Origin: Planctomycetota bacterium
Lineage (GTDB): Bacteria; Planctomycetota; MHYJ01; JACPRB01
Length of the DNA: 50,069 nt
Assembly: GCA_035574235.1 (NCBI GenBank)
Contig: DATLZA010000111.1
Span: 1 to 50,069, forward strand
Direction of reading: 5' to 3'
Shown here piece after piece: positions 1 to 43,741 of the stretch. The stretch's first letter is position 1, and every line of letters starts with the position of its first letter. A model generated the notes under the pieces. That model saw only the letters and a list, made by a program, of their open reading frames with translations, was not told the origin of the DNA and made no database searches. Both the position numbers and the translations under genes were made by a program.

Positions 1-304
1 GCAGGCGCGCGTGCCCCTCGGCGCTCGAGAGGCGCTCGTCCCAGAGAACGACCGGCACCCTCACGCGCGTCCGGAGCTCCTCGGCGAAGTCCATCGCCCG
101 CCGGGCGCTCGGCCCCACCGTGCCGTCCATGTTGAGCGGCAGCCCCACGAGGACCTCCTCCGCCTGATGCTCCTCGGCCACGCGGGCGACGTCCTCGGCG
201 GTGGCGTCCTCGAGCGTCGGAAGCGCCATCGCCAGGCGCCCCTCCGGATCGCTGATCGCCAGCCCCGTGCGCCGCCCGCCCAGGTCCACCGCCAGAACCT
301 TCAT
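1..304 (-). CDS. ruvX: Putative Holliday junction resolvase / pre-16S rRNA nuclease RuvX (YqgF), 3' end missing
   Basis: The frame read leftwards from ATG at 304 gives MKVLAVDLGGRRTGLAISD at the N-terminus, the RNase H-like fold with the first catalytic Asp at residue 7. It continues with VGLPLNMDGT and VVLWDERLSS, the other conserved YqgF/RuvX blocks. About 101 of the usual 135-150 residues lie in the window, and the C-terminus with the last catalytic Asp is cut off at position 1. Family members process the 5' end of 16S rRNA and were first proposed as Holliday junction resolvases. The start codon overlaps the manC stop by one base (TGATG), so it is the distal, translationally coupled gene of a manC-ruvX transcript. 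Confidence 0.9.
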   Translation of the reverse strand, partial: MKVLAVDLGGRRTGLAISDPEGRLAMALPTLEDATAEDVARVAEEHQAEEVLVGLPLNMDGTVGPSARRAMDFAEELRTRVRVPVVLWDERLSSAEGHARL

Positions 305-1371
305 CAGAGGTACGTCTCCAGCCCCCGCCGCCGGATCTCCTCGATGAGCGTCTTGAGCTCGTCGGCGCGGTCCTTCGGACAGACGAGCGTCGCGTCCGGC
401 GTGTGCACCACGACGAAGCCCTCCAGGCCCAGAACGGCGACCAGGTGGCGCGGATCGGAAGAAAGAACCAGGGAGCCCTTCGTCTCCGCCGCCACGCACG
501 CGCCCTCCAGCGCGTTGCCCGCCGCGTCCTTCGGACGCCGCCCCAGCGCGGCCGCCCAGGACCCCACGTCGTCCCACTCGAAGCCGGCCTCGAGCATCAC
601 GACCCGCTCGGCCTTTTCCATCACCCCGTAGTCGATCGAAATCCGGGGGAGTCCCGCGTAGACGCGCTCCAGGACCTCCGGCAGGCGGCTCGTCCCGAAC
701 GCCGCGCGGACCTCCCGCAGCCCCGCGGAGAGCGCCGGCAGGTGGCGGTCGATCTCGGCGAGGATCGCCCGCGCGGACCAGACGAACATTCCGCTGTTCC
801 AGTAGTAGTCCCCCGCGGCCACGAACCCGCGCGCGGTCTCCGGATCGGGCTTCTCGCAAAACCGGCGCACGCGGAAGCCGTTGCCTTCGCGCGCTCCGCG
901 GTGCAGGTAGCCGTAACCGGTCGCGGGATGGCGCGGCCGCACGCCCAGGGTCACCAGCGCCCCCGCCCGCGCCGCCTCGCGCGCCTCCCGGAGGCTGCGG
1001 TGGAATTCGTCCGGCGGATGGATGTCATGGTCGGCCGGGAGCGTCGCGAACACCGCTTCGGGATCCCGCCACTCGAGAAACGCGGCCGCCAGCCCCACCG
1101 CCGCGGCGGTGTCCCGCCCCGCGGGCTCGTCGATGACGTTCTCGGGCGGGAGCAGATCCAGGTCCTCCCGCACCGCCTCGGCGTGCTCCCGCGCGGTCAC
1201 CACGAACACCTGCGCGGGCTCCAGAAGCGGGAAGAGACGCTCGACCGTCCGGCGCACCATCGAGCGGCCGCCCAGAATCGGAAGAAGCTGCTTGGGCCGG
1301 GACCGGCGGGAAAGCGGCCAGAAGCGCGTCCCGCTGCCCCCGGCCAGGACGACGGCGTAGAAATGGCGCAT
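304..1371 (-). CDS. manC: Mannose-1-phosphate guanylyltransferase
   Basis: A 355-residue nucleotidyltransferase, the usual length for the stand-alone GMP-type enzyme without the isomerase domain. The N-terminus holds the nucleotide-binding signature LAGGSGTRFWPLSR (residues 9-22) with Lys27 downstream. Later come LPADHDIH (about 111-118), a metal- and substrate-binding block, and FCEKPD (about 171-176), the variant of the family's F-x-E-K-P motif. It makes GDP-mannose from mannose-1-phosphate and GTP for glycan synthesis in the cytoplasm. An upstream in-frame extension exists, but the homology begins exactly at the ATG at 1371. There is no Shine-Dalgarno; a TATAAT lies 10 nt upstream, so the mRNA is probably leaderless or nearly so. 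It is followed by ruvX with a one-base overlap. Confidence 0.92.
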   Translation of the reverse strand: MRHFYAVVLAGGSGTRFWPLSRRSRPKQLLPILGGRSMVRRTVERLFPLLEPAQVFVVTAREHAEAVREDLDLLPPENVIDEPAGRDTAAAVGLAAAFLEWRDPEAVFATLPADHDIHPPDEFHRSLREAREAARAGALVTLGVRPRHPATGYGYLHRGAREGNGFRVRRFCEKPDPETARGFVAAGDYYWNSGMFVWSARAILAEIDRHLPALSAGLREVRAAFGTSRLPEVLERVYAGLPRISIDYGVMEKAERVVMLEAGFEWDDVGSWAAALGRRPKDAAGNALEGACVAAETKGSLVLSSDPRHLVAVLGLEGFVVVHTPDATLVCPKDRADELKTLIEEIRRRGLETYL

Positions 1372-1687: not shown

Positions 1688-3448
1688 ATGATCAGATTGC
1701 TGGTAAAATCGGAGGGCGAGTCGCGCGAGGTGGAGCTGGCCGATTCGGTGGTCACGCTCGGCCGTTCGGCGGAGAACCTCGTCGCGCTGGCCGACAAGAA
1801 GGCTTCCCGCAAGCACGCCAAGATCGAGAAGACCGACTCGGGTTACGTCCTGACGGATCTCGATTCCGGCAACGGCACGCGCGTCAACGGCAAGGACGTC
1901 AAGACGTACGTCCTGGCCAAAGGGGACGAAATCCAGATCGGGCTGACGAGTCTCTTCGTGCTCGAGCTGGACGGCCCGGCGCCGGTGACGGCGGCGGCGC
2001 CCGTCCCTGCGCCGGCTCCCGCCGCGTCCCCGGCCCCTGCGCCGGCCGCTCCCGCCCCGCAAAAGCCCGCCGTTCCGGAGTTCAAGCGCCGGATCACGCG
2101 CCGGGCGTTCTCGTCGCGGTCGGCCGCGCCGGGCCGCGCCGTCGCCGTGGCCGCGATCTTCATCATTCTGGGCGCCGTGGCGTACGCCTTCGTCTTTCAT
2201 CACCACGAGATTCTGCCCAAACCGGCCGTCCATGCGCACCGGCCGGCGGCCGCCCCCAAGGCCGAACCTTCCCGCGCGGAGGCGGAAAAGGCGCTCGAGG
2301 AGCTGCGCGCCCGGGCCGCCGCCGGCCCGGTCACCGACGCCCTGGTCCGCGAAGCGGAGGAGCAGGCGGAGCGCTTCGAGGCCGTGGCGCCCGGGTTCGC
2401 CGCCCTCCGGGACGACCTCAAGCGCCGTCGCTCCGAAGACATCGCGAAGATGACCTTCGCGGACGTGGAGCGTCTGGTCCAGGAGCACCTCCAGAATCAC
2501 CGGTACGGAGAGGCGATCCACGCGCTCAAGGCCCTGTCGGGCACTCCGGAGGAAGGGGCCGCGTCGTCGCTCCTCGAGCGGATCACCGCGCAGGTCCGCG
2601 CCGACCGCGAGGCGGTGGACGAAGCCGGCAAGAAGCTCGTCGAGGCCAAACGGTATTCGGAAGCGGCGGAGCATTACCGGAAAAACGCTCCGCGCTTCCG
2701 GGGGACGGAGCACTACAGCTATCTGGCCGGCAAGCCGGAGCGCCTCATGCTCCTGGCGGAAGCGGATCTGGCCGCCTCCAAGGCGAAGGCGGAGCGTCCC
2801 GCGCCGGCGCCGGCGCCCGCCGCGCCTCCCAAGCCCGCGGAAGAGCCTCTGGCCAAGGCGATGCCCGCTCCGGAGCCCGCCAAGCCGGCGATGAAACCGG
2901 AGCCCATGAAGCCGGAGCCGGCCATGAAACCCGAGGCTCCCAAGCCGGAGCCCATGAAGCCGGAACCGATGAAGCCTCCGGCGCCCAAGCCGGAACCTCC
3001 GAAGCCGGAGCCGGCCAAGCCGGAACCCGCCAAGGCCGAGAAGGCCCGGCCCGCGTTCAAGAAGCCGCCGGTGCTTTGCGACATCAAGCGCACGGTCAAG
3101 GGAATGTTCTGCACGACGTGCGACCGCGTGCTGGACCCCGAGAATGACACGCGCCGCGGAGTCTGCAAGCGCTGCGAAGAAAAGCCCATGAAGATCGACA
3201 TGTGCGTGCGGCGCTACTTCCAGGCGGCCTGCCACCCCGAGAAGGTGAGCGACAAGCCCGTCTTCTGCTGAGGGAAGCTCCACGATACTCCGTTGGAGGA
3301 TCGGGCCCGGATCGTTTACTACTGCGAGTCCTGCGAACAGGTGGGGGACACTCAGGGCGACGTGCCCCATACCCCCGAATGCAAGAATCGATTCGGCGTG
3401 ACGAAGGTGTGCACGAAGTCGGGGCACGAGCCCCATTCGGGAAAATAG
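1688..3448 (+). CDS. FHA-domain membrane protein with periplasmic Cys-rich domain; in-frame UGA read as selenocysteine (candidate)
   Basis: The ATG at 1688 follows a GGAGGAG Shine-Dalgarno. Residues 1-100 form an FHA phosphothreonine-binding domain (GRS at 26-28, SRKHA at 41-45, NGT near 62). A Pro/Ala-rich stretch, one transmembrane helix (about 150-170), a charged helical region possibly TPR-like (about 190-365) and a Pro/Lys/Glu/Met linker (about 370-455) follow. The C-terminal domain holds CTTC, CKRC and a CHP motif. At residue 528 the frame meets UGA directly after a Cys, then runs on 58 codons to TAG at 3446. That extension (EDRARIVYYCESC) matches the gene at 3483 (EDRARIIYECSTC). If UGA were a true stop, 211 nt would separate the two genes; with readthrough the gap is 34 nt. 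FHA would be cytoplasmic and the Cys/Sec domain periplasmic. Sec is inferred; premature termination at 3271 remains possible. Confidence 0.72.
2860..3045 (+). repeat. In-gene repeat coding a Lys-Pro-Glu-Pro-Met linker
   Basis: Tandem degenerate units coding KPEPMKPEPA-like peptides produce a run of near-identical AAGCCGGAGCC words inside the FHA-protein gene. The peptide is extended and charged, suited to spanning periplasm or peptidoglycan between the helical region and the terminal Cys domain. Such tracts often vary in length between strains. Confidence 0.7.
3269..3271 (+). other. In-frame UGA, candidate selenocysteine codon (Cys-Sec pair)
   Basis: UGA follows a UGC codon, giving Cys-UGA-Gly. 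In the all-Cys paralogue at 4981 the same place is Cys-Cys-Gly within KPVRCCG, against KPVFC-UGA-G here. Homology resumes immediately after the codon. UGA aligned to Cys with conserved sequence on both sides is the classical signature of a selenoprotein gene. Confidence 0.72.
3281..3305 (+). promoter_or_regulatory. Candidate bacterial SECIS hairpin
   Basis: CTCC (3288-3291) pairs with GGAG (3295-3298) around the 3-nt loop GTT. The stem extends, after one A-G mismatch, through GAT/ATC (3284-3286 with 3300-3302) and C3283-G3303. The loop begins with G and starts 20 nt after the UGA, within the distance known for bacterial SECIS elements, whose apical loop has an early G contacted by SelB. Folding was done by eye. 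Confidence 0.5.
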
Positions 3449-3482
3449 GGACCTCCCCGGGCGGGGAGCGGAAAGGAGCGGG

Positions 3483-4301
3483 ATGATGAGCATGAGGAAG
3501 GCCGCGGGGGCGGTCTGCGCCCTCGTTCTGGCGGCGGGCGCCGCCTTCGCCCTGGCCCAGGCCAAGCCGGTCAACGCCAAGTGCCCCGTCAAGCCCCAGA
3601 ACGCCGCCAAGCCGGACATCACGGCGGCCTACAAGGGGCACACGATCGGCTTCTGCTGCGGCGGCTGCAAACAGCGGTTCGCCGGGGATCCGGACGCCTA
3701 CGCCGAACAGATCCCCGAGCTCTCCAAGGCCCCGGCCAGGCCGGACAACAAACCCATCAACGCCAAGTGCCCGGTCCGCCCGGACCAGCCGGCCAAGGCC
3801 GCCGTCACGGTCACGATCCAGGGCAAGGTCATCGGGTTCTGCTGCAAGTCCTGCCTGGCCAAGTTCTCCAAGAGTCCGGAAGCGTACCTCGCTTCGATTC
3901 CGGAGCTGCGGGTGCGCAACGGATCGTCCTCGGAAAAGACCGGTCCCTGCGAGGTGAACCGGACGGCCAAGGGATACTACTGCACCACCTGCAAGCGCGA
4001 GCTGGGGCCGGACGACGTGCGCGGCGGGCTCTGCAAGCGGTGCGAGAACAAACCCACCGAGATCGAGTATTGCGTCAAGCTCGTCCCCAAGCCCGTTCCG
4101 CCCAAGAACGGGAAGCCGCAGCCGCCGGAGATCGCCGAAGACCGCGCACGGATCATCTACGAATGCTCGACCTGCGGCGCCCGCGCGGACGTGGAGGCCG
4201 AGGTCAAGCATAAACCGGACTGCAAGCCGGTGCTTGGAGCCTCCTACAAGAAGATCTGCTCGAAGTCCGGCAAGCCGCCTCACGTGGGGGATGAGAAATG
4301 A
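3483..4301 (+). CDS. Secreted double-YHS, Cys-rich putative metal-binding protein
   Basis: A 272-residue protein with a signal peptide ending near AFALAQA. Two tandem YHS-like repeats follow, each starting NAKCPV and carrying a GFCC-x-x-C core (GFCCGGCKQRF and GFCCKSCLAKF). YHS domains occur in heavy-metal transport and sensor proteins. The C-terminal half is homologous to the C-terminus of the FHA protein just upstream: GYYCTTC, LCKRC, then EDRARIIYECSTC and a terminal CSKSGKPP block. It lacks the segment where the relatives carry Cys-Cys or UGA, having a Pro/Lys-rich stretch instead. A GGAAAGGAG Shine-Dalgarno precedes ATG-ATG at 3483; the ATG at 3492 is an alternative. The substrate is unknown; soft metal or metalloid binding is inferred from the Cys content. 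Confidence 0.85.
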   Translation: MMSMRKAAGAVCALVLAAGAAFALAQAKPVNAKCPVKPQNAAKPDITAAYKGHTIGFCCGGCKQRFAGDPDAYAEQIPELSKAPARPDNKPINAKCPVRPDQPAKAAVTVTIQGKVIGFCCKSCLAKFSKSPEAYLASIPELRVRNGSSSEKTGPCEVNRTAKGYYCTTCKRELGPDDVRGGLCKRCENKPTEIEYCVKLVPKPVPPKNGKPQPPEIAEDRARIIYECSTCGARADVEAEVKHKPDCKPVLGASYKKICSKSGKPPHVGDEK

Positions 4302-4342
4302 ATCCCCTCCGCCACGACGGCTGACGCGACGCGACGCTCCGC

Positions 4343-4360
4343 GCCCCCGGATCCGGGGGC
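4343..4360 (+). terminator. Possible terminator hairpin after the YHS gene
   Basis: GCCCCCGGATCCGGGGGC is a perfect palindrome 42 nt after the YHS stop codon, followed by TCTT only. A second, weaker GCGCCC/GGGCGC hairpin (4369-4393) is followed by TCCCCTTTA. The U-tracts are poor, so termination may be partial. The rest of 4302-4453 holds no gene. Confidence 0.4.
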
Positions 4361-4453
4361 TCTTCGAGGCGCCCGCCCGAGGGGCCGGGGCGCTCCCCTT
4401 TACGGACCGTCCTCGGTTTTCGTTTTCCCAGTCTTTTTTCAGGGAGGTGGCTT

Positions 4454-4873
4454 ATGCGAAAAGCGTGGTGGGTGGGGGCGCTCGCCGCGGCGATCGCGCT
4501 CGTGGCGGCGGCGCAGGCGCCCCCGCGGTGTACGGGGACTCCGTCCAAGAAGCCGTACTGCAAGACGTGCGACAAGTTGCTCGATCCCAAGACGGAGATG
4601 AAGGGCCGGAAGTGCGCCAAGGACGACACGGAAACGACGCTGGTCGACGTCTGCGTGAAGAAGACGCCGTACGTCAAGTGCCACCCGAACAAGGAGGGGC
4701 TCAAGGTCGGCGGAACCTGATGAGGGAATCCCGTCACCGAACAGGTGGATGAGGCCCGTGTGGTCTCGAAGTGCACGGGGTGCAACGCGGAGGCGCTCAG
4801 CCCGAAAGACCTCAAGCACGCGGACGACTGCAAGAAGAAGGCGCTGGCCCGGGGGTGCAAGCACGTCCTCTAG
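4454..4873 (+). CDS. Small secreted Cys-rich protein with tandem UGA-UGA, candidate Sec-Sec selenoprotein
   Basis: The ATG at 4454 follows GGGAGGTGG. A signal peptide (about residues 1-22) leads into PPRC, CKTC, a KC near 50, DVC and KCHP, the arrangement of the paralogue at 4981. After 88 residues the frame meets two consecutive UGA codons, then continues 50 codons to TAG at 4871. The extension has CTGC and DLKHADDC, against CEGC and ALKHADGC in the paralogue, so it is coding. UGA-UGA falls where the paralogue has Cys-Cys, both followed by Gly (one residue is inserted just before). A terminator begins 22 nt after the TAG, which marks the TAG as the true end. The full product is 139 residues with Sec at 89-90. 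Without Sec insertion an 88-residue truncated protein is made. Function unknown; metal or metalloid binding or redox in the periplasm is inferred. Confidence 0.72.
4718..4723 (+). other. Tandem UGA-UGA, candidate consecutive selenocysteine codons
   Basis: Two adjacent UGA codons replace the vicinal Cys-Cys of the paralogue at 4981. The eight bases TGAGGGAA starting at the second UGA are identical to those at the UGA of the FHA protein (3269-3276). Consecutive Sec residues are very unusual and would form a vicinal diselenol or diselenide. Confidence 0.68.
4734..4748 (+). promoter_or_regulatory. Candidate SECIS hairpin downstream of UGA-UGA
   Basis: CACC (4735-4738) pairs with GGTG (4744-4747) around the loop GAACA, with a flanking U-G pair and, beyond a small internal loop, one or two further C-G pairs. 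The loop starts with G, 15 nt after the second UGA and 18 nt after the first. It is weaker than the hairpin at 3281 and was judged by eye. Confidence 0.4.
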
Positions 4874-4895
4874 GCCGCTGCCGCAAGGATTCCGG

Positions 4896-4931
4896 AAGGC
4901 GCCCGGTCTCCCCTCGGGGACCGGGCGCCTT
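4896..4931 (+). terminator. Rho-independent-type terminator after the tandem-UGA gene
   Basis: AAGGCGCCCGGTC and GACCGGGCGCCTT form a perfect 13-bp stem with a 10-nt loop, followed by the T-rich TTCCCTTTCC. It begins 22 nt beyond the TAG at 4871 but 172 nt beyond the UGA pair, supporting the TAG as the natural end of the gene. Confidence 0.8.
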
Positions 4932-4954
4932 TCCCTTTCCCGCCCGGCGGGCCG

Positions 4955-4960
4955 TATAAT
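4955..4960 (+). promoter_or_regulatory. -10 element TATAAT of the small Cys-rich gene at 4981
   Basis: TATAAT lies 20 nt before the start, followed by a strong GGAGGAGG Shine-Dalgarno, so this gene has a short conventional leader. It comes directly after the terminator of the preceding gene, so the gene has its own promoter. No clear -35 is seen. Confidence 0.6.
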
Positions 4961-4980
4961 CTCTCGGAGGAGGTGACGCC

Positions 4981-5388
4981 ATGAAAGCCGTTCTCGCCGC
5001 GGCCGTCCTGGCCGTCGCGGCGGCGGTCCCGGCGCGACCGCCCTGCGAGATGAAGAACAAAGTGAAGCGGTGGCATTGCCCCAAGTGCGAAAAGCTCTAC
5101 CCTCCGAACGCCGTGAAGGCGCGAACCTGCCCCGAGGACAAGGCGTCCCTGGAGCAGGCGGAGGTGTGCGTGCGGGAGCGCTACGTGGCCGCCTGCCATC
5201 CGGACAAGGTGGGGGACAAACCCGTGCGCTGCTGCGGCGTGGAGTACACCAAGCCGACCCTGGACGAATCGGAGATTCTTTACGTCTGCGAAGGATGCGG
5301 GGTCAAGTCGAGGACCCTGGGCGCCCTCAAGCACGCCGACGGCTGCGCGGACCGCAAGGTCAAGAAGCGCTGCGGGCACGCCGCGTGA
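4981..5388 (+). CDS. Small secreted Cys-rich protein, all-Cys paralogue
   Basis: A 135-residue protein with a signal peptide (about 1-20, AAAVPARPPC). It has the same Cys skeleton as its neighbours: HCPKC, TC, EVC, ACHPDK, a vicinal Cys-Cys in KPVRCCGVEY, then YVCEGC and LKHADGC with a terminal RCGHAA. The two CxxC knuckles look like treble-clef or zinc-ribbon halves. It is uninterrupted and serves as the internal reference showing that UGA in the relatives replaces Cys. Translation starts after GGAGGAGG. No known family was recognised; periplasmic metal or metalloid binding is an inference from Cys content and from the neighbouring YHS protein and membrane protein. Confidence 0.85.
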   Translation: MKAVLAAAVLAVAAAVPARPPCEMKNKVKRWHCPKCEKLYPPNAVKARTCPEDKASLEQAEVCVRERYVAACHPDKVGDKPVRCCGVEYTKPTLDESEILYVCEGCGVKSRTLGALKHADGCADRKVKKRCGHAA

Positions 5389-5419
5389 ACGAATTCCTTG
5401 GTGCGCGCGGGCGAGGCGC

Positions 5420-5425
5420 TATAAT
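5420..5425 (+). promoter_or_regulatory. -10 element TATAAT, probable leaderless start of the gene at 5435
   Basis: TATAAT is followed by nine bases (CGCGCGCCC) and ATG. There is no room for a Shine-Dalgarno, and a start site 6-8 nt after the hexamer would fall 1-3 nt before the ATG. Confidence 0.62.
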
Positions 5426-5434
5426 CGCGCGCCC

Positions 5435-6055
5435 ATGGACAAACTGGCCGTCAGCCTGCTGTCCACCTTCACGGTCGCGCTTCTGCACACGCTGATCCCG
5501 AGCCACTGGCTGTGCTTCGTGGTTGTGGGGCGGGCGCAGGGCTGGCGGACGCGAAAGACGCTCGCGGTCGCGGCGGCCGCGGGGACGCTCCACGTGGCCT
5601 CCACGGTGGGGCTCGGGGTGGCGGTCGTGGCTTTCGGGAAGGCGTTTCTCGACCCTGAAAGCCCGGTCCTCGAAAAAGGCGGCGCGGCGATCCTGATCGC
5701 GCTCGGGCTTCTCTACCTGGCCTCGCACGTTCTGCACGCGGGCCACCGCCACGCGCACGACCAGTCCGTGACCGAAAAGACCGCGTTCGCGGCGCTCGTC
5801 CTGTCGCTCGTCTTTTCGCCCTGCTCGGCGGCCATTCCGTTCCTCGTGGCCGCCTCGCACACCCTGGGGACGGGGGCGGTGATGCTCCTCTCGGCCGTCC
5901 TTCTGGCGACGACGCTGGGGGTGATGATGCTTCTCATCGGGCTGACGACCCTCGGGATCGAAAAGCTCCAGTTCTCCTTCTTCGACCGCTACGAGAAGCT
6001 CATTCTGGGGCTGGTCCTGGCCGCGCTCGGGGGGCTTTCGCTGGCGGTTCATTGA
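5435..6055 (+). CDS. Polytopic membrane protein, possible NicO/RcnA-like metal transporter
   Basis: 206 residues with about six predicted membrane helices. The first helix carries HTLIPSHW, reminiscent of the H-x4-D/S-H motifs of nickel/cobalt exporters and LysE-type transporters. A cytoplasmic or periplasmic His-rich loop HAGHRHAH follows helix 3, and the fourth helix has FSPCSAAIPF, a Pro-Cys motif seen also in CcdA/DsbD-like proteins. No domain is conclusive. Its place directly after four Cys-rich metal-binding-like proteins suggests metal or metalloid transport, or electron transfer to them. Its C-terminus overlaps the convergent gene at 6049 by 7 bp. Confidence 0.75.
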   Translation: MDKLAVSLLSTFTVALLHTLIPSHWLCFVVVGRAQGWRTRKTLAVAAAAGTLHVASTVGLGVAVVAFGKAFLDPESPVLEKGGAAILIALGLLYLASHVLHAGHRHAHDQSVTEKTAFAALVLSLVFSPCSAAIPFLVAASHTLGTGAVMLLSAVLLATTLGVMMLLIGLTTLGIEKLQFSFFDRYEKLILGLVLAALGGLSLAVH

Positions 6056-22687: not shown

Positions 22688-24652
22688 TCATCCTCCTCGA
22701 AGCGCGCCCCGGACCGCTCCGAGCAGGGCCTCCGGCGCGAACGGCTTCTGGAGGAGCCGCGCGTCCGGCTCCAGCCCCTGGCGCATTGCCATCTCCTCCG
22801 AATACCCCGACATGTAGACGATTTTGAGCTCCGGCCGGTCCCGCCTCAACGCCCGCGCCACGGCGCACCCGCCCTGCCCGGGAAGAACCATGTCCGTCAG
22901 GAGAAGATCGATCCGTCCCCTCCATTCCCGGCCGATCCGTTCGGCATCCTCCGCCCGACCGGCCTCAAGGACTTCGTAGCCCTGCAACGTCAGAATGTGC
23001 CGGACGAGTTTCCGGAGACTCGGGTCGTCCTCGACAACCAGCACGATTCCCTTTTCCCCGTCGGGAGGCCCCGGAGCGCCCGCCGGCGCCGGAGCCTCCA
23101 CGGGACCGTCCACTCTGGGCAGGAAAATCCGGAAAACCGTCCCTCGCCCCACTTCGCTGGAAACGGAAATGTACCCTCCGCTCTGCTTGACGATCCCGTA
23201 CACCGTGGCCAATCCGAGCCCCGTGCCCTGCCCCGACGCTTTCGTCGTAAAGAACGGTTCGAAGGCCTGCGCCAGCACCTCGGGACTCATGCCGGTCCCG
23301 GTGTCGGACACCGAAAGCATCACGTACGGCCCGGAAGGCGCGTCCGCCGGCCGCGCCGCGTCGCGCTCGTCGAGATCCACATTGGCCGTGGCGATCCGGA
23401 GCGTTCCCCCGTCGGGCATGGCGTCCCGGGCGTTCAACGAGAGATTCATGATGACCTGCACCATCTGGTTGGCGTCCACCCGCACGGGCCCCAGGTCGGG
23501 CGCCGGCGCCGTCACAAGCTCAATGTGTTCCCCGATCAGGCGCCGGAGCATGCGCTCCGTCTCCGCCACGACGTCGTTGAGGCAGACCACGCGCAGGCTG
23601 AGGACCTGCCGGCGGCTGAAGGCCAGAAGCTGCGACGTCAGGGCGGCCGCGCGCCGGCCCGCCTTGAGGATTTCCCAGACCGGCTCGTGCAACGGATCGA
23701 TCTCGCCGAGCTGCCGGAGGACCATCTCGCTGTAGCCGTTGATCACGGTCAGGATGTTGTTGAAATCGTGCGCGATGCCTCCGGCCATGCGTCCGATGGC
23801 CTCCATCTTCTGCGCCTGGGCAAGCTGAGCCTGGGCCTTCCGCAGCTGGTCGTCGGCGCGCCGCCGCTCCGTGACGTCCCGGCTGACGCTCAGCACCGCC
23901 TCGATCCGTCCCGCGGCGTCCCGCAGGGGAACCGAATGCGTCTCCATCCACCGCTCTGTGCCCTTCAGCCCCCGCATCCGGAACTGGAGCGTTCCAGCCC
24001 GCCCCTCGCAGGAGGCGCGGTGAAGATTGAGGAACACTTCACGGTCCTCCGGGTGAACCAGGGGAAGGACCGGCTGCCCGGTCACGTCCTCCACACGCTC
24101 CGCTTCGAGGATCGACAGACCCGCGGGATTGATGTCCAGAAGCAGGCCGTCCGGAGAGACCACTTTCACGCATTCGGGTTCGTGATCGAGAATCGCCCGG
24201 AGCCATTCGCGGCTCTTGCGCAGATCGGATTCCGCCCGGCTCTCTCGATCCAGAAGGCGCCGTGCCTCCAGACGGGCCACGGCCAGCCGGGCCAGCGCGG
24301 CCAAAGCCTCCCGTTCCTCGCCTTCCAGGTCCCGCGCCGCCGTGTCGAGCACGGCAAGGAATCCGAAGCGCGTTCCGTCCGTCAGGAGAAGCGGCGCGGC
24401 CGCCAGGAACCGCAGGGGCGGACACGGCCCTGCGCCGTTCCCGCCGTCCGCCACGAGCAGGCGACCGGCCGAAAGGCATTCGTCCGCGATTCCGCAGCGC
24501 TCCAGACGCGTGGGACCCGGCCAGCCGGCCGCGGAAAGAACCCGGAATGCCCTGTCGGAGGCGGCGCACAGCAGCGCCGCCGGAGCGCGGCACGCGAGAC
24601 GGGCCAGCAGGACGAAATCCTCAAAGCCGCGGGAGATCGCGCCCCCACCCAT
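22688..24652 (-). CDS. Hybrid sensor histidine kinase (GAF-PAS-HisKA-HATPase-receiver)
   Basis: 654 residues, ATG 24652 after GAGGAAGG. A GAF-like domain (about 1-150) is followed by PAS (about 165-280, ending SVSRDVTERRR), HisKA with phospho-His in GGIAHDFNNIL, and the ATPase domain (N-box NLSLNARDAMPDGG, DTGTGMS, GTGLGLATVYGIVKQSGG). The C-terminal receiver has VVEDD, phospho-acceptor in LLTDMVLPG and Lys in LLQKPF. The whole protein is cytoplasmic. No output regulator is adjacent, so the signal must pass to a distant partner, such as the lone receiver at 12310 or another protein. Confidence 0.92.
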   Translation of the reverse strand: MGGGAISRGFEDFVLLARLACRAPAALLCAASDRAFRVLSAAGWPGPTRLERCGIADECLSAGRLLVADGGNGAGPCPPLRFLAAAPLLLTDGTRFGFLAVLDTAARDLEGEEREALAALARLAVARLEARRLLDRESRAESDLRKSREWLRAILDHEPECVKVVSPDGLLLDINPAGLSILEAERVEDVTGQPVLPLVHPEDREVFLNLHRASCEGRAGTLQFRMRGLKGTERWMETHSVPLRDAAGRIEAVLSVSRDVTERRRADDQLRKAQAQLAQAQKMEAIGRMAGGIAHDFNNILTVINGYSEMVLRQLGEIDPLHEPVWEILKAGRRAAALTSQLLAFSRRQVLSLRVVCLNDVVAETERMLRRLIGEHIELVTAPAPDLGPVRVDANQMVQVIMNLSLNARDAMPDGGTLRIATANVDLDERDAARPADAPSGPYVMLSVSDTGTGMSPEVLAQAFEPFFTTKASGQGTGLGLATVYGIVKQSGGYISVSSEVGRGTVFRIFLPRVDGPVEAPAPAGAPGPPDGEKGIVLVVEDDPSLRKLVRHILTLQGYEVLEAGRAEDAERIGREWRGRIDLLLTDMVLPGQGGCAVARALRRDRPELKIVYMSGYSEEMAMRQGLEPDARLLQKPFAPEALLGAVRGALRGG

Positions 24653-31034: not shown

Positions 31035-31373
31035 TTACTTCCCTCCTCCCCACCGTCCTCCGAGGTCGAACGGCCCGTCCGCCGGCGTCCCCAGCCAGCC
31101 CCGCGTGAGGTAGTCGCTGAACGTCAGCGCCATCAGGATCCCCAGCCAGAAAAAGCCCGTCGCCGCGAAGACCCACACTACCCGCGAACCGCCCCGCAGA
31201 TGCATGAAGTACACGGCCACCAGCCCCCCCTTCGCTCCCGCGATCGCCAGGGCCAGCGCCGCGTTCAGCGGTCCCAGGTCCACGAAGGACACCCCCGTCG
31301 TCAGCGCGGTCAGCGCCACGAGCGCCCCAAATACCGCCAGGTAGGTGCGCGCGGAAGATTCCCCCGGACTCAT
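31035..31373 (-). CDS. ctaF: Cytochrome c oxidase subunit IV (caa3-type)
   Basis: 112 residues with three membrane helices ([50 protein letters not shown]). The pairing of LVAVYFMHL with three helices is typical of prokaryotic subunit IV. It is last in the operon, and the start overlaps the subunit III stop (ATGA). It stabilises the oxidase; no cofactor ligands are expected. Confidence 0.88.
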
Positions 31374-32020
31374 GCCCCATGCCTCCCCGGCAGGTAAAGA
31401 AGCGGGAAGAGAAAGATCCAGACCAGGTCCACGAAGTGCCAGTACAGCCCTACCCCCTCGACCGGGGTGAAATACGCCGGCCCGTAACGCCCCCGCCCCA
31501 CGCGCCCGGCGATCCATCCCACAAGCCCGATCCCGATCCCCAGATGCAGCGCGTGAAAGCCCGTCAGGACGAAATAAAAGATGAAAAAGAGCCTCGCCCG
31601 GGGCGCGTCCGGCCCCTCGTACCGGAAGTCCCCCCAGGGAATCAGACGCTCATGAGCCTTGTGCGCGTATTCGGTGAACTTGATGCCCAGGAACGCCGCG
31701 CCCAGGAGCGCCGTCGCCGCCAGGAACAGCGCCCCGCGCCGCCGCCCTCCCCGGCTCACCTCGCGGACGGACAGGGCCATCGTCAGGCTCGAGGCGATGA
31801 GCACGACCGTATTGACCGTCCCGAGCGCGAGATCCGTCCGAAGGCTTGCGGCCGCGAAGGGCCCCGGAAAGTGCGCCCGGTAGACGGCGTAGCCCGCCAG
31901 CATCGCCCCGAAGAAAAGCACCTCCGTGGCCAGAAAGACCCACACCCCGAGGACGGACGCCTCGCGCTGTTCCTCCGGCGTGTCGAAGGCCGCGGCCGGG
32001 GCGGCCGGAGAAGCCGCCAT
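31370..32020 (-). CDS. ctaE: Cytochrome c oxidase subunit III
   Basis: 216 residues with about five membrane helices, the short form of subunit [49 protein letters not shown] and [20 protein letters not shown] are the family's conserved blocks, including the Glu in the second helix. It starts one base after the subunit I stop. Confidence 0.95.
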
Positions 32021-32021
32021 C

Positions 32022-33623
32022 TCAGGTTTCCTCCCGCGACGGGTAGAAGTACGGAGGCTCGGTCACCACGGGCGTCTCCGCGAAGTTGTGCGCCGGCGGC
32101 GGCGAGGCGGTCCGCCACTCCAGCCCCGTGGCGTTCCAGGGATTGCGCCCCGCCGCCGGACCGTACCGCAGGGACCACAGGAGATAGAGCATCGGCAGCC
32201 CATAACCCGCCGCGAGAATGGAGGCGCCCGCCGAGGACATGACGTTGAGCACCTGGTACTCTTCCGGATAGGCGTGATACCGCCGCGGCATCCCCGCGTA
32301 CCCCAGGATGAACTGCGGAAAAAACGTCAGGTTGAACCCGATGAAGATCACGATCGCCGCGAACCGCCCCCATCCCTCCGGGTACCGGCGCCCCGTCATC
32401 TTGGGCCACCAGTAGTGCATGCCCCCGAGGTACGCCATCACCATTCCGCCCACCATGATGTAGTGAAAGTGCGCGATCACGAAGTACGTGTCGTGGACGT
32501 GCACGTCCACCGCCAGGGTCGCCAGGAAAAGCCCCGTGAGCCCCCCGATCGTGAAGAGGCCGATGAACCCGAGCGCATAAAGCATCGGCGTCTCGAACGA
32601 AATCGACCCCTTGTAAAGCGTCGCCGTCCAGTTGAAGACCTTCACCGCCGACGGAAGGGCCACGAGAAAACTCAGCAGCGAAAAGACCATCCCCCCGTAC
32701 AGGGACTGGCCGGCCACGAACATGTGATGCCCCCAGACGAGAAACCCCAGCACCGCGATCGCCAGGCTCGCGAACGCCACGAAGGCGTACCCGAAGAACC
32801 GCTTGCGCGAGAAGACCGGCACGATCTCGCTGACCACCCCCATCCCGGGCAGGATCATGATGTAGACCGCCGGATGGGAATAGAACCAGAAGAGATGCTG
32901 GAAAAGCACGGGGTCTCCGCCCAGCGCCGGATCGAAAATCCCCACTCCCGCCAGCCGCTCGATCCCCACGAGCGCCAGCGTCACCGCCAGAACCGGCGTC
33001 GCCAGCACCTGAATGAGGCTCGTGGCGTACAAGGACCACACGAAAAGCGGCAGCCTCATCCACGTCAGCCCCGGCGCCCGCAGCCGGTGCGTCGTCACGA
33101 TGAAGTTGAGCCCCGTCAGGATCGACGAGAACCCCGCCACGAAAATCCCCAGGACCGTCAGAACCACGTGGGTGTTGGAAAAGACCGAGCTGTACGGCGT
33201 GTAGAAGGTCCATCCCGTGTCCACTCCGCCGCTCAGAATCGCCCCGAGCGCCAGGAGCCCTCCCGCGTTGAAGAGATACCAGCTCGCCAGGTTCACCCGC
33301 GGGAACGCCAGATCGCGCGCCCCCAGCATGAGCGGCAGCATGAAGTTCCCGAGCACCGCGGGAATCGAAGGAATCAGGAAGAAAAAGACCATCACGATGC
33401 CGTGCATGGAGAACAGCTTGTTGTACGTCTCCGGCTGAACGAGATCTCCCGCCGGCGTCATCAGCTCCAGCCGCACGAGCGTGGCGAACGCCCCGCCCAC
33501 GAAGAAAAAGAAGGTGATGGAGAGAAGATAGAGAATCCCGATCCGCTTGTGGTCCGTGGTCAAAAGCCACGAACGCACCGAGTAATCCGCGTTCAGATAG
33601 TTCTCCGCCGGACGCGCGTCCAT
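32022..33623 (-). CDS. ctaD: Cytochrome c oxidase subunit I, A2-type (caa3)
   Basis: 533 residues, 12 membrane helices. Haem and CuB ligands: first haem-a His in [12 protein letters not shown], the CuB-His/Tyr helix in [17 protein letters not shown], His pair in GHHMFVAG, and [14 protein letters not shown] for the last haem ligands. The YSHP motif replaces the Glu of A1-type GHPEVY enzymes, marking the A2 proton-channel type found in Thermus caa3. K-channel Lys is in [19 protein letters not shown]. It is the catalytic O2-reducing, proton-pumping subunit. Confidence 0.97.
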
Positions 33624-33632
33624 GCTCGCCCC

Positions 33633-34571
33633 TCAATCGGCGGGCGGGCCTTCCGGAGCCGCGCCCAGGGATCGGATGTATTCGATCAGCGCAAGGATCT
33701 CCTCCTCGCCCACCCTCCCCCGGAACGACGGCATGATCGGCTCGAACCCTTCCACGACCCGGGCGGCCGGATCCAGGATCGATTCGCGCACGTACGCCGC
33801 GTCCGCCGTCGCCGTGCCTCCGCCCCGCAGCGGCACCCGGCTCCCGAAAAGGCCCTCGAGGCGCGGCGCCCGCGCCTCCGGCCCCCCCGTGTGACAGGTC
33901 GCGCATCCGAGGCTCAGGAAAAGCCGCCGCCCCTCCGCGGCGGGCGACCCCTCCGCCCCCCGTTCCAGCCACTCCTCGTAGCGCCGCGGCTCCAGCACCG
34001 CCACCCGCCCCACCATCCCCGAGTGCAGCGTCCCGCAGTACTCCGCGCAGAAGAGACGGTACTCCCCCGGCCGCGTCGCCTCGAACCAGGCCGTCGTGTA
34101 CCGTCCCGGCAGCGCATCCTGCTTGATCCGGAAGGCGGGCACGTAGAAGCTGTGAATCACGTCCTGCGAAGTCAGGTGGAGCCGGACCGGACGCCCCGTC
34201 GGCACGTGAAGCTCGTTGATCTCCCGCGCGCCGCTCGGATGCTGAACCTTCCACATCCATCGGCGGCCGATCACGTAAACCTCCATCGCCCCGGCGGGCG
34301 GCGTCTGGAGATCCACGAACAGGCTCGCCCCCCACGCGAACATGCCGAGCAGGATCACCCCGGGAATCGCGATCCAGATCACCTCGAGCGCGTTGTTCGT
34401 CGCCGTCTGCACGGCGCGCTCGCCGGGCGACCGCCGCCGGTACTTGACCGAGAAGGCCACGAGGCACGCCACGATCACGGCCGCGAAAAGCGCGCACACC
34501 CCGACGAGACAGCCGTAGAGCGCGTCCACCTGTCCCGCCATCGTCGAGGCCCGTTCCGGATAGAACTTCAC
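33633..34571 (-). CDS. ctaC: Cytochrome c oxidase subunit II with fused cytochrome c domain
   Basis: 312 residues from GTG 34571, which overlaps the SCO stop (GTGA); ATG 34541 is the alternative. Two N-terminal membrane helices anchor a cupredoxin with CuA ligands in VIHSFYVPAF (His) and CAEYCGTLHSGM (Cys, Glu, Cys, His, Met). A C-terminal class I cytochrome c domain has CATCH and a distal Met in EPIMPSF. The cytochrome c fusion defines a caa3 oxidase and removes the need for a soluble donor; complex III upstream in the operon is the probable electron source. Confidence 0.95.
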   Translation of the reverse strand: MKFYPERASTMAGQVDALYGCLVGVCALFAAVIVACLVAFSVKYRRRSPGERAVQTATNNALEVIWIAIPGVILLGMFAWGASLFVDLQTPPAGAMEVYVIGRRWMWKVQHPSGAREINELHVPTGRPVRLHLTSQDVIHSFYVPAFRIKQDALPGRYTTAWFEATRPGEYRLFCAEYCGTLHSGMVGRVAVLEPRRYEEWLERGAEGSPAAEGRRLFLSLGCATCHTGGPEARAPRLEGLFGSRVPLRGGGTATADAAYVRESILDPAARVVEGFEPIMPSFRGRVGEEEILALIEYIRSLGAAPEGPPAD

Positions 34572-35311
34572 GGCTCCCCCGTACGCCGGCGGCGCTCCCG
34601 GAACGCCATCAGCCCCACACCGAATCCCAGGGCCAGCGCCGTCAGGACCCCGAGCCCGCGCACCGCCGCCAGGACGCTCAGGCTGTACCGCCCCCGCGAG
34701 GGATCGTATCGGAAACACACCAGCAGCACGCGGTCCCGCAGGTTCCCCAGACGCCCCCCGCCGGCTTCCACGAGCGCCAGCCGCAGGTCCCGGGGCGGAT
34801 AATCGATCCCCGGGAAAAACGAAGACACGCGGCCGTCCGGCGTCAGGATCACCACGCCGGCCGCATGCGCGTACTGGTCCGAACGCGCGTCATAGGCGTA
34901 CCGAAACCCCACCGCCCCGGCGATTCGACGGATCGCCTCCTCCGAACCGGTCAGAAACCGCCACGCCTCCCCCGGCCGCCGCTGGTAACGCGCCTTCTTC
35001 TCCGCCGCCAGCCCCGGCGGTTCCCGCGGATCGATGCTGACGACCACCGCCTCGAACTCCCGCCCCGGGACCAGCCCCAGAACCCCGAACGCCCGGGCCA
35101 GTCCTCCGAGCACCTCCCCGCACACCAGGGGGCATCGGTAATAGACCAGCGCCAGGAGGCCGGGCTTTCCGCCCAGAACCTTCCGCAGCGAAACCTGCGC
35201 CTCCCCCTCGGTCAGCTCCACATCGAGCGGAACGCTCTCCCCGAGGCGGGGATCGAAGCCCACGTCGGACGGCCCGGCCTGAGCCCACGCCAGCGCGAGA
35301 ACGGCGATCAT
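34568..35311 (-). CDS. SCO1/SenC-type copper chaperone
   Basis: 247 residues, thioredoxin fold. The Cu ligands are the Cys pair in YYRCPLVCGE and the His in DQYAHAAGV; VSIDPREPPG and VVILTPDGRVSSFFPG are family blocks. It has a short N-terminal signal-like segment and an extra C-terminal membrane helix (VRGLGVLTALALGFGVGLM, about 215-235). It delivers copper to the CuA site of subunit II, the next gene, overlapping it by GTGA. Confidence 0.92.
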   Translation of the reverse strand: MIAVLALAWAQAGPSDVGFDPRLGESVPLDVELTEGEAQVSLRKVLGGKPGLLALVYYRCPLVCGEVLGGLARAFGVLGLVPGREFEAVVVSIDPREPPGLAAEKKARYQRRPGEAWRFLTGSEEAIRRIAGAVGFRYAYDARSDQYAHAAGVVILTPDGRVSSFFPGIDYPPRDLRLALVEAGGGRLGNLRDRVLLVCFRYDPSRGRYSLSVLAAVRGLGVLTALALGFGVGLMAFRERRRRTGEP

Positions 35312-35670
35312 CGCTCCTCCTTCCGGCGCACGGGCAACCCGCGTTCGGCCAGAAGATCCATCGCCCGCTCGATCGGAATCCGAAACACGCCGGCCCCGGG
35401 ATCCACGATGCCGTAACTCTCAAGGACGGCCCGTTCGGACGCCCGATGCCGGCGGAGATCGCCGGCCGGATCGGCCTGCAGGCGGGGCGGCGGAGGCGCG
35501 GGCCGTTCCCCCCGCGACGGCGGCCGGGGCCCGCGGCGTTCCAGGAGACCGGCGTAAAGCCCCCCGAGAGCGACGTGGATCACGGCCGCGCTCAGGACCA
35601 GAAACGCCGCAAAGAGGACAACCCCGCGGACGGGAAAATCGCGCCGTTCGTGACCCCGGCGCTCATCCAT
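35308..35670 (-). CDS. Hypothetical small membrane protein of the oxidase operon
   Basis: 120 residues. One membrane helix (VVLFAAFLVLSAAVIHVALGGLYAGLL, about 18-44) follows a charged N-terminus, then a Pro/Arg-rich linker and a C-terminal motif ILD-like ESYGIVDPGAGVFRIPIERAMDLLAERGLP. The GVFRIPI-x-x-AMDLL ending is shared, as far as I recall, by small proteins in ACIII or oxidase operons of other bacteria, where it sits before SCO. It overlaps actF by 8 bp and SCO by 4 bp. Probable assembly or accessory subunit; inference. Confidence 0.7.
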   Translation of the reverse strand: MDERRGHERRDFPVRGVVLFAAFLVLSAAVIHVALGGLYAGLLERRGPRPPSRGERPAPPPPRLQADPAGDLRRHRASERAVLESYGIVDPGAGVFRIPIERAMDLLAERGLPVRRKEER

Positions 35671-36853
35671 GGGCGCCCTCCTCGGAAGCGAAAAGCCGTT
35701 CGGTTCCCGGCGCGTGAACGGGCAGGAGCGGCGCCCGGCGAAGCAGCGCCGTCGCCGCCGCCAGCCAGAATCCGCCGATCCCGACGAGAGCCGCCGGAAG
35801 CGTCCATGCCAGGTGCGGGCCGGCCGCTCCGGCGCTCGGAATCACCTGCCAGAAAAGGTCGCCGAGGCGCGCCCCCAGAAGCCCCCCGGCCAGAATCATC
35901 ATCGCCCGGCGGCTCCGCTTCACCCGCTTCGAGAGGAGCAGGAAAAAGGGCGCCGCAAAGTGCACCGTCGCCAGGACCGCCGCGAACGCCCGCCAGCCCG
36001 GGGCGGAGCGGTGGAGGTACCAGTCGATTTCCTCCGGCAGGTTGCCCGACCAGATGATGAGGTATTGCGCGAACGACGTGTACGCCCAGAGCAGGACGAA
36101 CGTCAGGACCAGATTCCCCAGGTCGTTCAGGCGCCCCGGCGTCAGCGCCCCGGCCATCGGTTCGCGGCGGGCCAGGAGCGCCGCCGCCAGGACGCCCGCG
36201 CAGAGGCCCGACAGTCCCTGCCCCGCCATGAAGATCATTCCGAAAATCGTCGAGAACCAGTGCGCCTCGAGGGACATGACCCAATCGACCGCCATGAACG
36301 TGACCGCCAACCCATAGGCGATCAGGCCGGGCCCGCTCAGGAACCGCAGGCGGCGCGCCGCCGCGGGATCGGGCGTCCGGTCCAGGGCCAGGGATCCCCG
36401 GCGGAGGGCGATCGCCAGGACGGCCCAGACCCCGAAGTACGTCCCCGCGCGGGCGACGAAGAAAGGCGCGTTGAGATACGGGGTCCGATGGCGGACCAGT
36501 TCGTCCCCGCCGACCACCTCCGGCCGGCTCCAGGGATAGAGCGTCTCCAGGCCCCCGAGGAGCGGAAGGAAAAAAAGCGCCAGGATCGGCAGCGCCCCCG
36601 CGGCCGCTTCCTGGGGGCGCCGCACGAGCAGACCCCACGTCCCGCCCACAAGAAGGTGCAGCATCAGGACCGCCAGCGACCCCGCCGAGATCCCCGTCCA
36701 GAAAAGAAGCGCCACGAGGTACGCCGGAAAGAACGCCTCCGGAACCGTCACGGCCGCGGCCCCGCAAGCCGCCGCGCCGGCCAGGCCGGCCGCCGCCGCC
36801 CCGCGGATCAGGCGGTCCATCGCGTTTCCGGGATCCCGGCGCGTCTCGGTCAC
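35663..36853 (-). CDS. actF: Alternative complex III subunit ActF
   Basis: 396 residues from GTG 36853, which overlaps the actE stop (GTGA); ATG 36817 is the alternative. About ten membrane helices. Conserved stretches of the ActC/ActF NrfD-like family appear: AYLVALLFWTGISAGSLAVLMLHLLVGG, GLAVTFMAVDWVMSLEAHWFSTIFGM, LVLTFVLLWAYTSFAQYLIIWSGNLPEE. It is one of two quinol-interacting membrane subunits of ACIII, here the smaller, divergent one. Confidence 0.92.
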   Translation of the reverse strand: MTETRRDPGNAMDRLIRGAAAAGLAGAAACGAAAVTVPEAFFPAYLVALLFWTGISAGSLAVLMLHLLVGGTWGLLVRRPQEAAAGALPILALFFLPLLGGLETLYPWSRPEVVGGDELVRHRTPYLNAPFFVARAGTYFGVWAVLAIALRRGSLALDRTPDPAAARRLRFLSGPGLIAYGLAVTFMAVDWVMSLEAHWFSTIFGMIFMAGQGLSGLCAGVLAAALLARREPMAGALTPGRLNDLGNLVLTFVLLWAYTSFAQYLIIWSGNLPEEIDWYLHRSAPGWRAFAAVLATVHFAAPFFLLLSKRVKRSRRAMMILAGGLLGARLGDLFWQVIPSAGAAGPHLAWTLPAALVGIGGFWLAAATALLRRAPLLPVHAPGTERLFASEEGAHG

Positions 36854-37413
36854 GGCGCCTCGAGCCTCCTTAGAACATCCGGCGGCACGTCCTCCCGCCG
36901 GGCGCCCTGGCTGAGCTGGAGCGCCCGCACATACGCCACGATTTCCCACCGCCGCCGCGGCGCGATCAGGTCGTCGTACGCGGGCATCGCCCCCACGCCG
37001 CGCGTGATCACCTCGAAGAAATGTCCGGGCGGCGCCCGCCGGAGGCGGTCGGTATGAAAGGAAGGAGGCGCCCGGAAGCCCCGCTGGACGATCATCCCCG
37101 CCCCCGTTCCCACCGCGTCGTGACACGGCGCGCAGAAGACGCCGTACCGCGCGCGGCCGCGCTCAAGCGCCGCGCGGTCCACCGGAAACGGGAAGACCGG
37201 CGAAAGCTCCCCGCCGAGCCGCCCGGTCTCCAGGAGGGCGTCTCCCGAACGCTCGCCCCGGGCCACCGTCCCGGCCGGCCGCGGTCGAGCCGACTGACCG
37301 TATTCGAAGAAGGCGTTCCGCCCGAGCGGCTTGAGCCGGCCCTCGTCCGTCATCGCCTGCTCGCAGGCGACCAGAAAGGCGAAGGCGACGACGCCAAGGC
37401 GGCGCGCGACCAT
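36850..37413 (-). CDS. actE: Alternative complex III monohaem cytochrome c subunit ActE
   Basis: 187 residues with a lipobox in AFLVACEQ (Cys about 17), so a lipid-anchored periplasmic subunit. One haem-binding CAPCH with a distal Met in VGAMPAYDDLI, and GRARYGVFCAPCHDAVGTGAGM is the hallmark of ActE. It carries electrons from the ActA/ActB module toward the oxidase. It follows the actD stop directly (TAAATG). Confidence 0.95.
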   Translation of the reverse strand: MVARRLGVVAFAFLVACEQAMTDEGRLKPLGRNAFFEYGQSARPRPAGTVARGERSGDALLETGRLGGELSPVFPFPVDRAALERGRARYGVFCAPCHDAVGTGAGMIVQRGFRAPPSFHTDRLRRAPPGHFFEVITRGVGAMPAYDDLIAPRRRWEIVAYVRALQLSQGARREDVPPDVLRRLEAP

Positions 37414-37953
37414 TTATCGCTCCACGTCGTAGATCCCGACCGGGCGCAGCTCCGCCAGGAGCGTCCGGGTCCGGTCGGGATCGAAGCGGGGATCGTCCGC
37501 TTCCACGGACAGAAAGAACCGGTCCTGGCTGGCCAGCGCAAAGCGGGGGACGTTGAAGACGGGGTGATACGGCTGGGGCAGGCCGTTGAGGGCCAGCATG
37601 CCCAGGAGGGCGGACAGGCCCCCGAAGAGAATCGCAAGCTCAAAAGCGATGACGACGAAGGCCGGCCAGCTCGCCGTCGGACGCCCGCCGATGTTGAGCG
37701 GGTCATCGACGGCGGAGGCGAACACCTGCATGAAGAAGCCCCCCGCGGCGCCCGTGAGCCCCCCGGCCAGAACGACCCACGGAAGCCGCGTCCGATCCAT
37801 GCCCAGCGCTTCCGCGAGCCCCTCCACGGGGAACGGCGCGTACGCCTCCACCTTCCGGTAGCCCTCCGCGTGGACCTTCCGCGCCGCCGCGAGAAGGTCC
37901 TCCTTCCGCTCGAACTCGGCGAGCACGCCGAAGAGCCCTCCCCGCCCCGTCAT
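37414..37953 (-). CDS. actD: Alternative complex III subunit ActD (DUF3341)
   Basis: 179 residues, start overlapping the actC stop (ATGA). The DUF3341 signature is clear: [41 protein letters not shown], then two membrane helices ([42 protein letters not shown]) and [22 protein letters not shown]. It is an accessory membrane subunit whose exact role in ACIII is structural. Confidence 0.95.

Positions 37954-39298: not shown

Positions 39299-39302
<4 letters not shown>
37950..39302 (-). CDS. actC: Alternative complex III subunit ActC (NrfD/PsrC-like)
   Basis: 450 residues from GTG 39302 overlapping the actB stop (GTGA). Ten membrane helices. Characteristic blocks: [72 protein letters not shown] and [20 protein letters not shown]. 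It is the main quinol-oxidising membrane subunit. Confidence 0.95.

Positions 39303-42177
<2,875 letters not shown>

Positions 42178-42181
<4 letters not shown>

Positions 42182-42982: not shown

Positions 42983-43741
<759 letters not shown>

Follow-up and report, generated by a model that had tools for sequence, protein, structure and literature searches.

A Conserved Cluster of Cys-Rich Cell-Envelope Proteins with Predicted Selenocysteines, Including an Adjacent Pair, in a Planctomycetota Bacterium

Introduction

What is served by a row of neighbouring bacterial genes that repeat one Cys-rich domain, and in which the codon UGA falls inside the reading frame where relatives carry Cys? This question is raised by a cluster of five forward-strand genes at positions 1688-6055 of a 50,069-nucleotide stretch of Planctomycetota DNA (assembly GCA_035574235.1, contig DATLZA010000111.1), referred to here as the window. 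The window is contig C111 of its own genome, G000, a 4.06 Mb draft assembly. The cluster encodes an FHA protein, a two-YHS protein, two small secreted proteins and a membrane protein, with selenocysteine (Sec, U) predicted at the in-frame UGA codons. Its features, including the matching codons in a second genus (locus L039 of genome G001), are as follows.

1688..3448 (+), FHA domain, one transmembrane (TM) segment, long Pro/Lys/Glu-rich linker and C-terminal Cys domain; 586 aa, TAG stop at 3446-3448, predicted Cys-Sec pair (U528)
3269..3271 (+), in-frame UGA, predicted second residue of the vicinal Cys-Sec pair 'VFCUGK'; same codon at L039 5144
3483..4301 (+), secreted two-YHS protein, 272 aa, vicinal CC in each YHS domain, Cys domain without a vicinal pair
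4454..4873 (+), small secreted Cys-domain protein, 139 aa, TAG stop at 4871-4873, predicted tandem Sec-Sec (U89 U90)
4718..4723 (+), tandem UGA-UGA, predicted adjacent selenocysteines 'GGTUUGN'; L039 6416-6421
4981..5388 (+), small secreted Cys-domain protein, 135 aa, vicinal Cys-Cys 'RCCGV' (codons 5230-5235)
5435..6055 (+), polytopic membrane protein P0006, 206 aa (HTLIPSHWLCF, SPCSAAIP, His-rich loop)

An earlier note, made from the sequence of the window, had read these genes as a dedicated system for a soft metal or metalloid. As far as comparison of sequences goes, the locus is a conserved cluster whose cell-envelope proteins are variations on a single zinc-ribbon-like Cys domain, with Sec predicted in its vicinal pair. 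The front ends named in the earlier note hold, as both FHA (PF00498, 61.1 bits against a cut-off of 20.7) and YHS (PF04945, 47.8 against 30.3) exceed their Pfam family cut-offs, with the TM segment and topology of the FHA protein assigned by eye. The polytopic membrane protein does follow the Cys-rich genes.

Predicted Selenocysteine Sites

The cluster was compared with that of G001, which belongs to another genus of the same family (isolate nzgw515, contig JAHFOZ010000113). Both genomes are fragmented draft assemblies, that of G001 being 87% complete, and selenoprotein translations were made with TGA=U. Beyond the UGA, the frame of the FHA gene continues for 58 residues, and that of the third gene, with its TGATGA, for 49. 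Every in-frame UGA of these genes in the two genera (9/9) lies in a vicinal [CU][CU] pair. The UGA positions align with Cys in relatives, and the tandem UGAs align with the Cys-Cys of the all-Cys counterpart at 4981..5388, which fixes the alignment of the Sec positions. A UGA flagged at the end of this Cys-Cys gene is that gene's own stop. The vicinal site had been described earlier as holding Cys, Sec or neither; the first and third genes do carry in-frame UGA, and the doubling of Sec is an addition to that description.

The two genera have kept these codons through considerable divergence. The window FHA protein is 50% identical to its G001 counterpart (P0008), with the UGA in the same alignment column, and the Sec-Sec protein is 53% identical to a G001 protein carrying the same tandem UGA. 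Every UGA of the FHA and Sec-Sec genes is thus common to both genomes, while the flanks of the UGA columns are only about 50-60% identical. Substitutions per nonsynonymous (dN) and synonymous (dS) site after the UGA, measured against G001, give dN 0.32, dS 1.62 and dN/dS of about 0.20 for the FHA gene (58 codons), and dN 0.39, dS 0.91 and dN/dS of about 0.43 for the Sec-Sec gene (47 codons). Judged by these ratios, the sequence 3' of the UGA is under purifying selection. Identity after the UGA is 34/58 and 26/47 in frame, against 25/56, 20/57, 17/46 and 17/44 in the other frames; because the frames of GC-rich DNA are correlated, this contrast is support and not proof. General recoding of UGA was considered and set aside, since many other called genes of the window end at UGA.

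The G001 cluster runs FHA, YHS, Sec-Sec, membrane, without the Cys-Cys gene and with one extra Cys-rich gene upstream. This conservation of order in a second genus supports the idea of a dedicated system. The pairs of G001 read 'CU' in the FHA protein and 'UU' in the small protein. Its YHS protein, 57% identical to that of the window, has two predicted Sec, one in a YHS-like domain ('FCUGGC') and one in the Cys domain ('MCUGR'). On a different contig (L041:3258-3818), a second YHS-type protein reads 'FCUNGC', its Cys domain lacking the segment with CHP and the vicinal pair. G001 therefore adds three Cys-Sec sites to the shared ones, two of them in YHS domains, although the assignment to YHS is by likeness: the YHS-like protein P0009 has no Pfam match at 0.001, and the L041 protein scores 21.4 bits, below the PF04945 cut-off.

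The machinery for Sec is present in the window's own genome, with SelA (568 bits), SelB (above cut-off), a tRNA-Sec with UCA anticodon, and two SelD genes (C10:1530-2444 and C165:30105-31013), one all-sense and one with an in-frame UGA. A formate dehydrogenase of the same genome carries an in-frame UGA in 'QSRIUHGPTVASL' and matches the Rfam selenocysteine insertion sequence (SECIS) model SECIS_3 (RF01989) at 81 bits. G001 also has a Sec formate dehydrogenase and a complete SelD of the Sec form. In bacteria, Sec insertion at any UGA depends on a hairpin directly behind that codon, and SelB has to be reloaded before the codon that follows. The following candidate for a bacterial SECIS (bSECIS) was noted after the UGA of the FHA gene.

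3280..3305 (+), possible bSECIS hairpin, loop GUU 21 nt from the UGA (script's count); 30% of background codons fold as well

Some points count against the Sec prediction. The Sec version is known from two genomes only, both of them fragmented. In G001, no tRNA-Sec was found in the 87% complete assembly, the best match being a tRNA-Ser, and SelA is present as a contig-end fragment only. Additionally, hairpins of suitable geometry follow each UGA, but do not stand above 2334 background codons; the formate dehydrogenase control is likewise unseparated, and no claim is therefore based on the hairpin rule. The cluster UGAs have no Rfam SECIS match, whereas the control matches RF01989. Taking both sides together, it is very probable that the cluster genes encode genuine selenoproteins, as predicted from the aligned codons, and it is probable that both tandem UGAs are decoded as Sec.

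The Shared Cys Domain and Its Distribution

A domain of about 115 residues is common to the four soluble proteins and, when aligned, shows CxxC, a CxxC-like motif, CV, CHP, the vicinal pair, CxxC and HxxxC. The vicinal pair is predicted Cys-Sec in the FHA protein and Sec-Sec in the third protein, is Cys-Cys in the fourth, and is absent from the Cys domain of the YHS protein. The claim that the same Cys skeleton recurs in four neighbouring genes thus stands as to the alignment, with two corrections: the Cys domain of the YHS protein has neither CHP nor the vicinal pair, and the element given as KHxxxC reads PHTPEC in the FHA protein. The Cys skeleton marks a family, and recurs well beyond chance.

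A match of the domain to a known family of other function had been named in advance as a finding that would speak against the earlier reading. No Pfam or NCBIfam (release 20.0) family model names the domain. Among 25 members, Zn_ribbon_6 is matched in nine and HMBD in four at E<=1, and the weak NCBIfam matches include CxxC_Se_CxxC (E=0.0089) and GDCCVxC (E=0.085). Individual members look like double zinc ribbons. MetRS-like, HypA-like and other zinc-ribbon names fell below cut-off and were not accepted as membership. Structure prediction for a zinc-ribbon fold, which had been suggested as a check, gave a confident model of the domain (predicted local distance difference test, pLDDT, 92.4), but no fold match in the PDB at E<=0.001 and none over the whole length. 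The zinc knuckles of methionyl-tRNA synthetase in a second structure search (Z<=4.7) were taken as a common zinc-knuckle arrangement only, and RPA12 in a PDB sequence search (E=9e-5) as zinc-ribbon resemblance only.

The domain is found in 10 of 119 relatives at E<=0.001 and in 9 of 392 genomes of the phylum at E<=1e-6; the two sets overlap and both include the window's own genome. Among the 392, only G000 and G001 have an in-frame UGA ahead of the domain's end. The relatives elsewhere are single secreted all-Cys proteins, and no shared neighbourhood was seen in gene calls at 16 loci inspected by eye. Scattered homologues had also been named as evidence that would count against a dedicated system. 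Scatter is what the all-Cys relatives show, and the membrane gene has no Cys-rich gene beside it in two of five family genomes, whereas the gene order is kept in G001. Three of the relatives (L042, L043, L046) also show vicinal CC where others have CxxC. The alignment suggests that a zinc knuckle may have lost two residues to give the vicinal pair, with Cys giving way to Sec only afterwards.

Two adjoining all-Cys members of the domain were seen in G007 (L055:2933-3863), the second knuckle being an ordinary CxxC. The Sec-Sec protein has no relative among viral contigs. A plasmid search with the FHA protein was discounted: it gave nine records, and the five listed match via the FHA domain only.

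The Membrane Protein and the Proposed Function

The membrane protein is present in all five genomes of the family (about 340 bits) and, more remotely, in 12 more of 59. Its gene has a constant neighbour, found in the window at the following position.

304..1371 (-), divergent flanking gene marking the conserved chromosomal site; a similar gene lies beside the membrane gene in G001, G002, G003 and G004

We take this gene to be mannose-1-phosphate guanylyltransferase-like, and such a gene adjoins the membrane gene in 5/5 family genomes. In G000, G001 and G002 the Cys-rich genes are found between these two. A scan of contigs with the membrane protein gave five loci: L080 (G001), L081 (G004) and L082 (G003), and short matches in Marinobacter and Streptomyces, which were dropped. 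The predicted structure of the protein is too uncertain for use (pLDDT 63.6).

Outside the family, homologues on Bacteroidota plasmids (31-35% identical) all lie in heavy-metal efflux clusters (4/4), and by annotation a heavy-metal P-type ATPase directly follows the homologue in three of the four. On the fourth plasmid, the two following open reading frames (ORFs) are unannotated and presumably P-type ATPase-like by their motifs, with a cation diffusion facilitator nearby. At L180:6933-8929, the P-type ATPase-like gene adjoining the homologue of the membrane protein is split into two overlapping frames and is absent from the record's gene table.

The best overall explanation, which sequence comparison makes marginally probable, would be periplasmic handling of a soft metal or metalloid by Cys/Sec proteins together with the membrane protein. 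The secreted proteins would use their vicinal thiol/selenol pair to capture, in the periplasm, an ion of a soft metal or metalloid (Hg, Cd, Cu, As, Te or Se species), and would then pass it on. The YHS protein would take part in the same task, and the membrane protein, which resembles the LysE/DsbD superfamily, would carry either the ion or reducing equivalents through the inner membrane. The FHA protein, its N-terminus lying in the cytosol and its Cys-Sec domain on the outer side, would tether the site to the membrane and could signal; such a topology would suit the report to an internal Ser/Thr kinase that the earlier note proposed. Metal capture is favoured by the heavy-metal efflux clusters around distant relatives of the membrane protein, by the zinc-ribbon-like and YHS domains of the soluble proteins, and by the ties of known CU selenoproteins to metals: in the part of a prokaryotic inventory used here, six of the seven families with a CU motif are metal- or organometal-related by name or system (PMC13188914; count made here). 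Whether metal handling is the main role is an even call.

Three points weigh against this proposal. In G003 and G004 the membrane gene occupies the same chromosomal site without Cys-rich neighbours. Pfam and NCBIfam profiles name no metal transporter, pump or regulator among the window genes at 1688-6055. Lastly, the same inventory regards most known selenoproteins as redox proteins (PMC13188914, in part), which favours the main rival. The soft-metal proposal of the earlier note thus gains from the distant relatives of the membrane protein.

The main rival, possible but rather unlikely, is a periplasmic selenol/thiol redox relay. The pairs would cycle between reduced and selenenylsulfide/diselenide forms, reducing peroxides, disulfides or oxidised metalloids, and Cys residues in one early and one middle helix of the membrane protein would carry cytosolic electrons, as in CcdA/DsbD. 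C27 and C130 are indeed invariant in 5/5 close membrane proteins, but in plasmid relatives, and in most of the distant ones, the place of C27 is taken by Pro, C130 being widely kept. Distant relatives (G011:C33, G019:C357 and G008:C10) are ORFs that match PF13386 DsbD_2 over cut-off. P0006 itself matches neither PF13386 nor PF02659 Mntp at E<=10, and the latter gives a weak match (E=0.0016) in one of five members. The 'CUG' of the cluster may be likened to the GCUG redox end of animal thioredoxin reductase, in which vicinal Cys-Sec is followed by Gly. That pair lies at the flexible C-terminus of a flavoenzyme, whereas the cluster pair lies inside a domain that resembles a zinc ribbon, with no flavoprotein nearby. 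In addition, neither Pfam nor NCBIfam identifies a thioredoxin-fold protein or any other known redox partner among the cluster genes, and the plasmid relatives belong to metal efflux clusters.

It is improbable that the UGAs form a selenium-responsive switch, stopping translation when selenium is short and being read when it is plentiful, so that short and full forms differ in their job and the cluster manages selenium. The UGA does come near the end of the FHA gene and in the second half of the Sec-Sec gene, leaving a separable, conserved tail, and selenium was among the ligands that the earlier note proposed. The all-Cys counterpart, however, has no such break, and the Sec sites of the G001 YHS protein lie early as well as late, so that short forms would lose most of the protein.

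Equally hard to credit, if not slightly more so, is that one tandem UGA is Sec and the other is read as a different amino acid by a near-cognate or suppressor tRNA, or skipped. The lack of a bacterial precedent in the literature searched speaks for it, but the two genera retain both UGAs in proteins that are 53% identical, and in the alignment both fall on the Cys-Cys of the counterpart. Ordinary stops in decaying genes, or assembly errors, are very improbable: the assemblies are drafts and GC-rich sequence leaves chance frames open, but every UGA of the FHA and Sec-Sec genes is found in both genera, whose genomes were assembled independently, dN/dS is below 1 after the UGA, and the UGAs occur at vicinal-pair positions only.

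It is likely that bacteria can insert two Sec at adjacent codons, apparently with one SECIS, giving a vicinal diselenol in an envelope metal-handling protein. Within the cluster, the site would have evolved from Cys-Cys through Cys-Sec to Sec-Sec, recurring in zinc-ribbon-like and YHS domains. The conserved UGA-UGA raises the question of whether one hairpin serves two adjacent codons, and also that of the behaviour of a vicinal diselenol. Sec is here predicted in a small-protein domain without a named family, in an envelope setting. Standard annotation ends these genes at the UGA, and therefore more of them may be hidden.

Transcription Layout and the Rest of the Window

A strong hairpin follows the Sec-Sec gene, so the cluster may hold more than one transcription unit.

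4894..4933 (+), terminator-like hairpin with T-rich tail 3' of the Sec-Sec gene; -38.7 kcal/mol, z -5.6

The equivalent hairpin in G001 has z -5.4. A consensus terminator scan of the window did not report the hairpin, giving 5 sites against a shuffle mean of 5.1; that of G001 gave 8 sites against 4.2, the hairpin after the Sec-Sec gene included. The FHA, YHS and Sec-Sec genes probably form one transcription unit and the membrane gene another.

Elsewhere, the window holds a hybrid histidine kinase with PAS domains and a receiver (22688-24652), a respiratory run (31035-42828) that includes an SCO1/SenC protein and in which SCO1 and 4Fe-4S domains are matched by profile, and a TerC family membrane protein (42983-43741 (-), PF03741, 151 bits). 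The other genes of the respiratory run we take to be caa3-type oxidase subunits and alternative-complex-III-like genes.

Comparison with Known Systems

The arrangement found here, with side-by-side Cys replaced by one or two adjacent Sec, has no bacterial description that we could find in the open-licence literature. A 2026 inventory covers 119 prokaryotic selenoprotein families or subfamilies, and in the part used here adjacent Sec-Sec is in no listed motif, some motifs being blank (PMC13188914). The consulted parts of PMC9312934 and PMC10096412 give no further case of adjacent Sec. Our finding of no bacterial Sec-Sec pair applies to open-licence work, and the primary papers on the Sec-assisted organometallic (SAO; Haft and co-workers) and Tso operons may still hold one.

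These operons are the nearest parallel. Like the cluster, they have selenoprotein genes side by side and vicinal CU, with a metal or organometal theme in SAO; unlike it, their proteins belong to other families (ABC transporter parts, MerB-like lyase, rhodanese fusions), with no adjacent Sec-Sec listed in the portion consulted (PMC13188914). The SAO/Tso signature families in NCBIfam were not matched by the cluster proteins, which were the only ones searched. No NCBIfam selenoprotein model is matched over cut-off by the window and G001 proteins. MbdU (NF045648, metal-binding double selenoprotein) and SaoC (Cys-Cys-COOH selenoprotein) share the CU pair and a metal-related name or system (PMC13188914, in part), and neither is matched by the cluster proteins. 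The YHS domain selenoprotein NF041384 likewise has Sec in a YHS-type protein, as in G001; its motif is GxU with one Sec, in the portion of the inventory used (PMC13188914), whereas the G001 proteins read FCUGGC and FCUNGC, and NF041384 was not among the matches at E<=10 or E<=1. For the membrane protein, the likeness to PF13386 DsbD_2 and PF02659 Mntp is transitive or weak.

The closest likeness to the Sec-Sec protein itself is eukaryotic. Two consecutive Sec occur in the algal PDI_e (GUGUU), which its report, as far as used here, calls the first such case (PMC7539508). The cluster protein would share the two adjacent Sec; PDI_e, however, is a eukaryotic PDI-type protein served by a eukaryotic SECIS (PMC7539508, in part), whereas the cluster protein is a bacterial, zinc-ribbon-like envelope protein that would need a bacterial SECIS after the codon.

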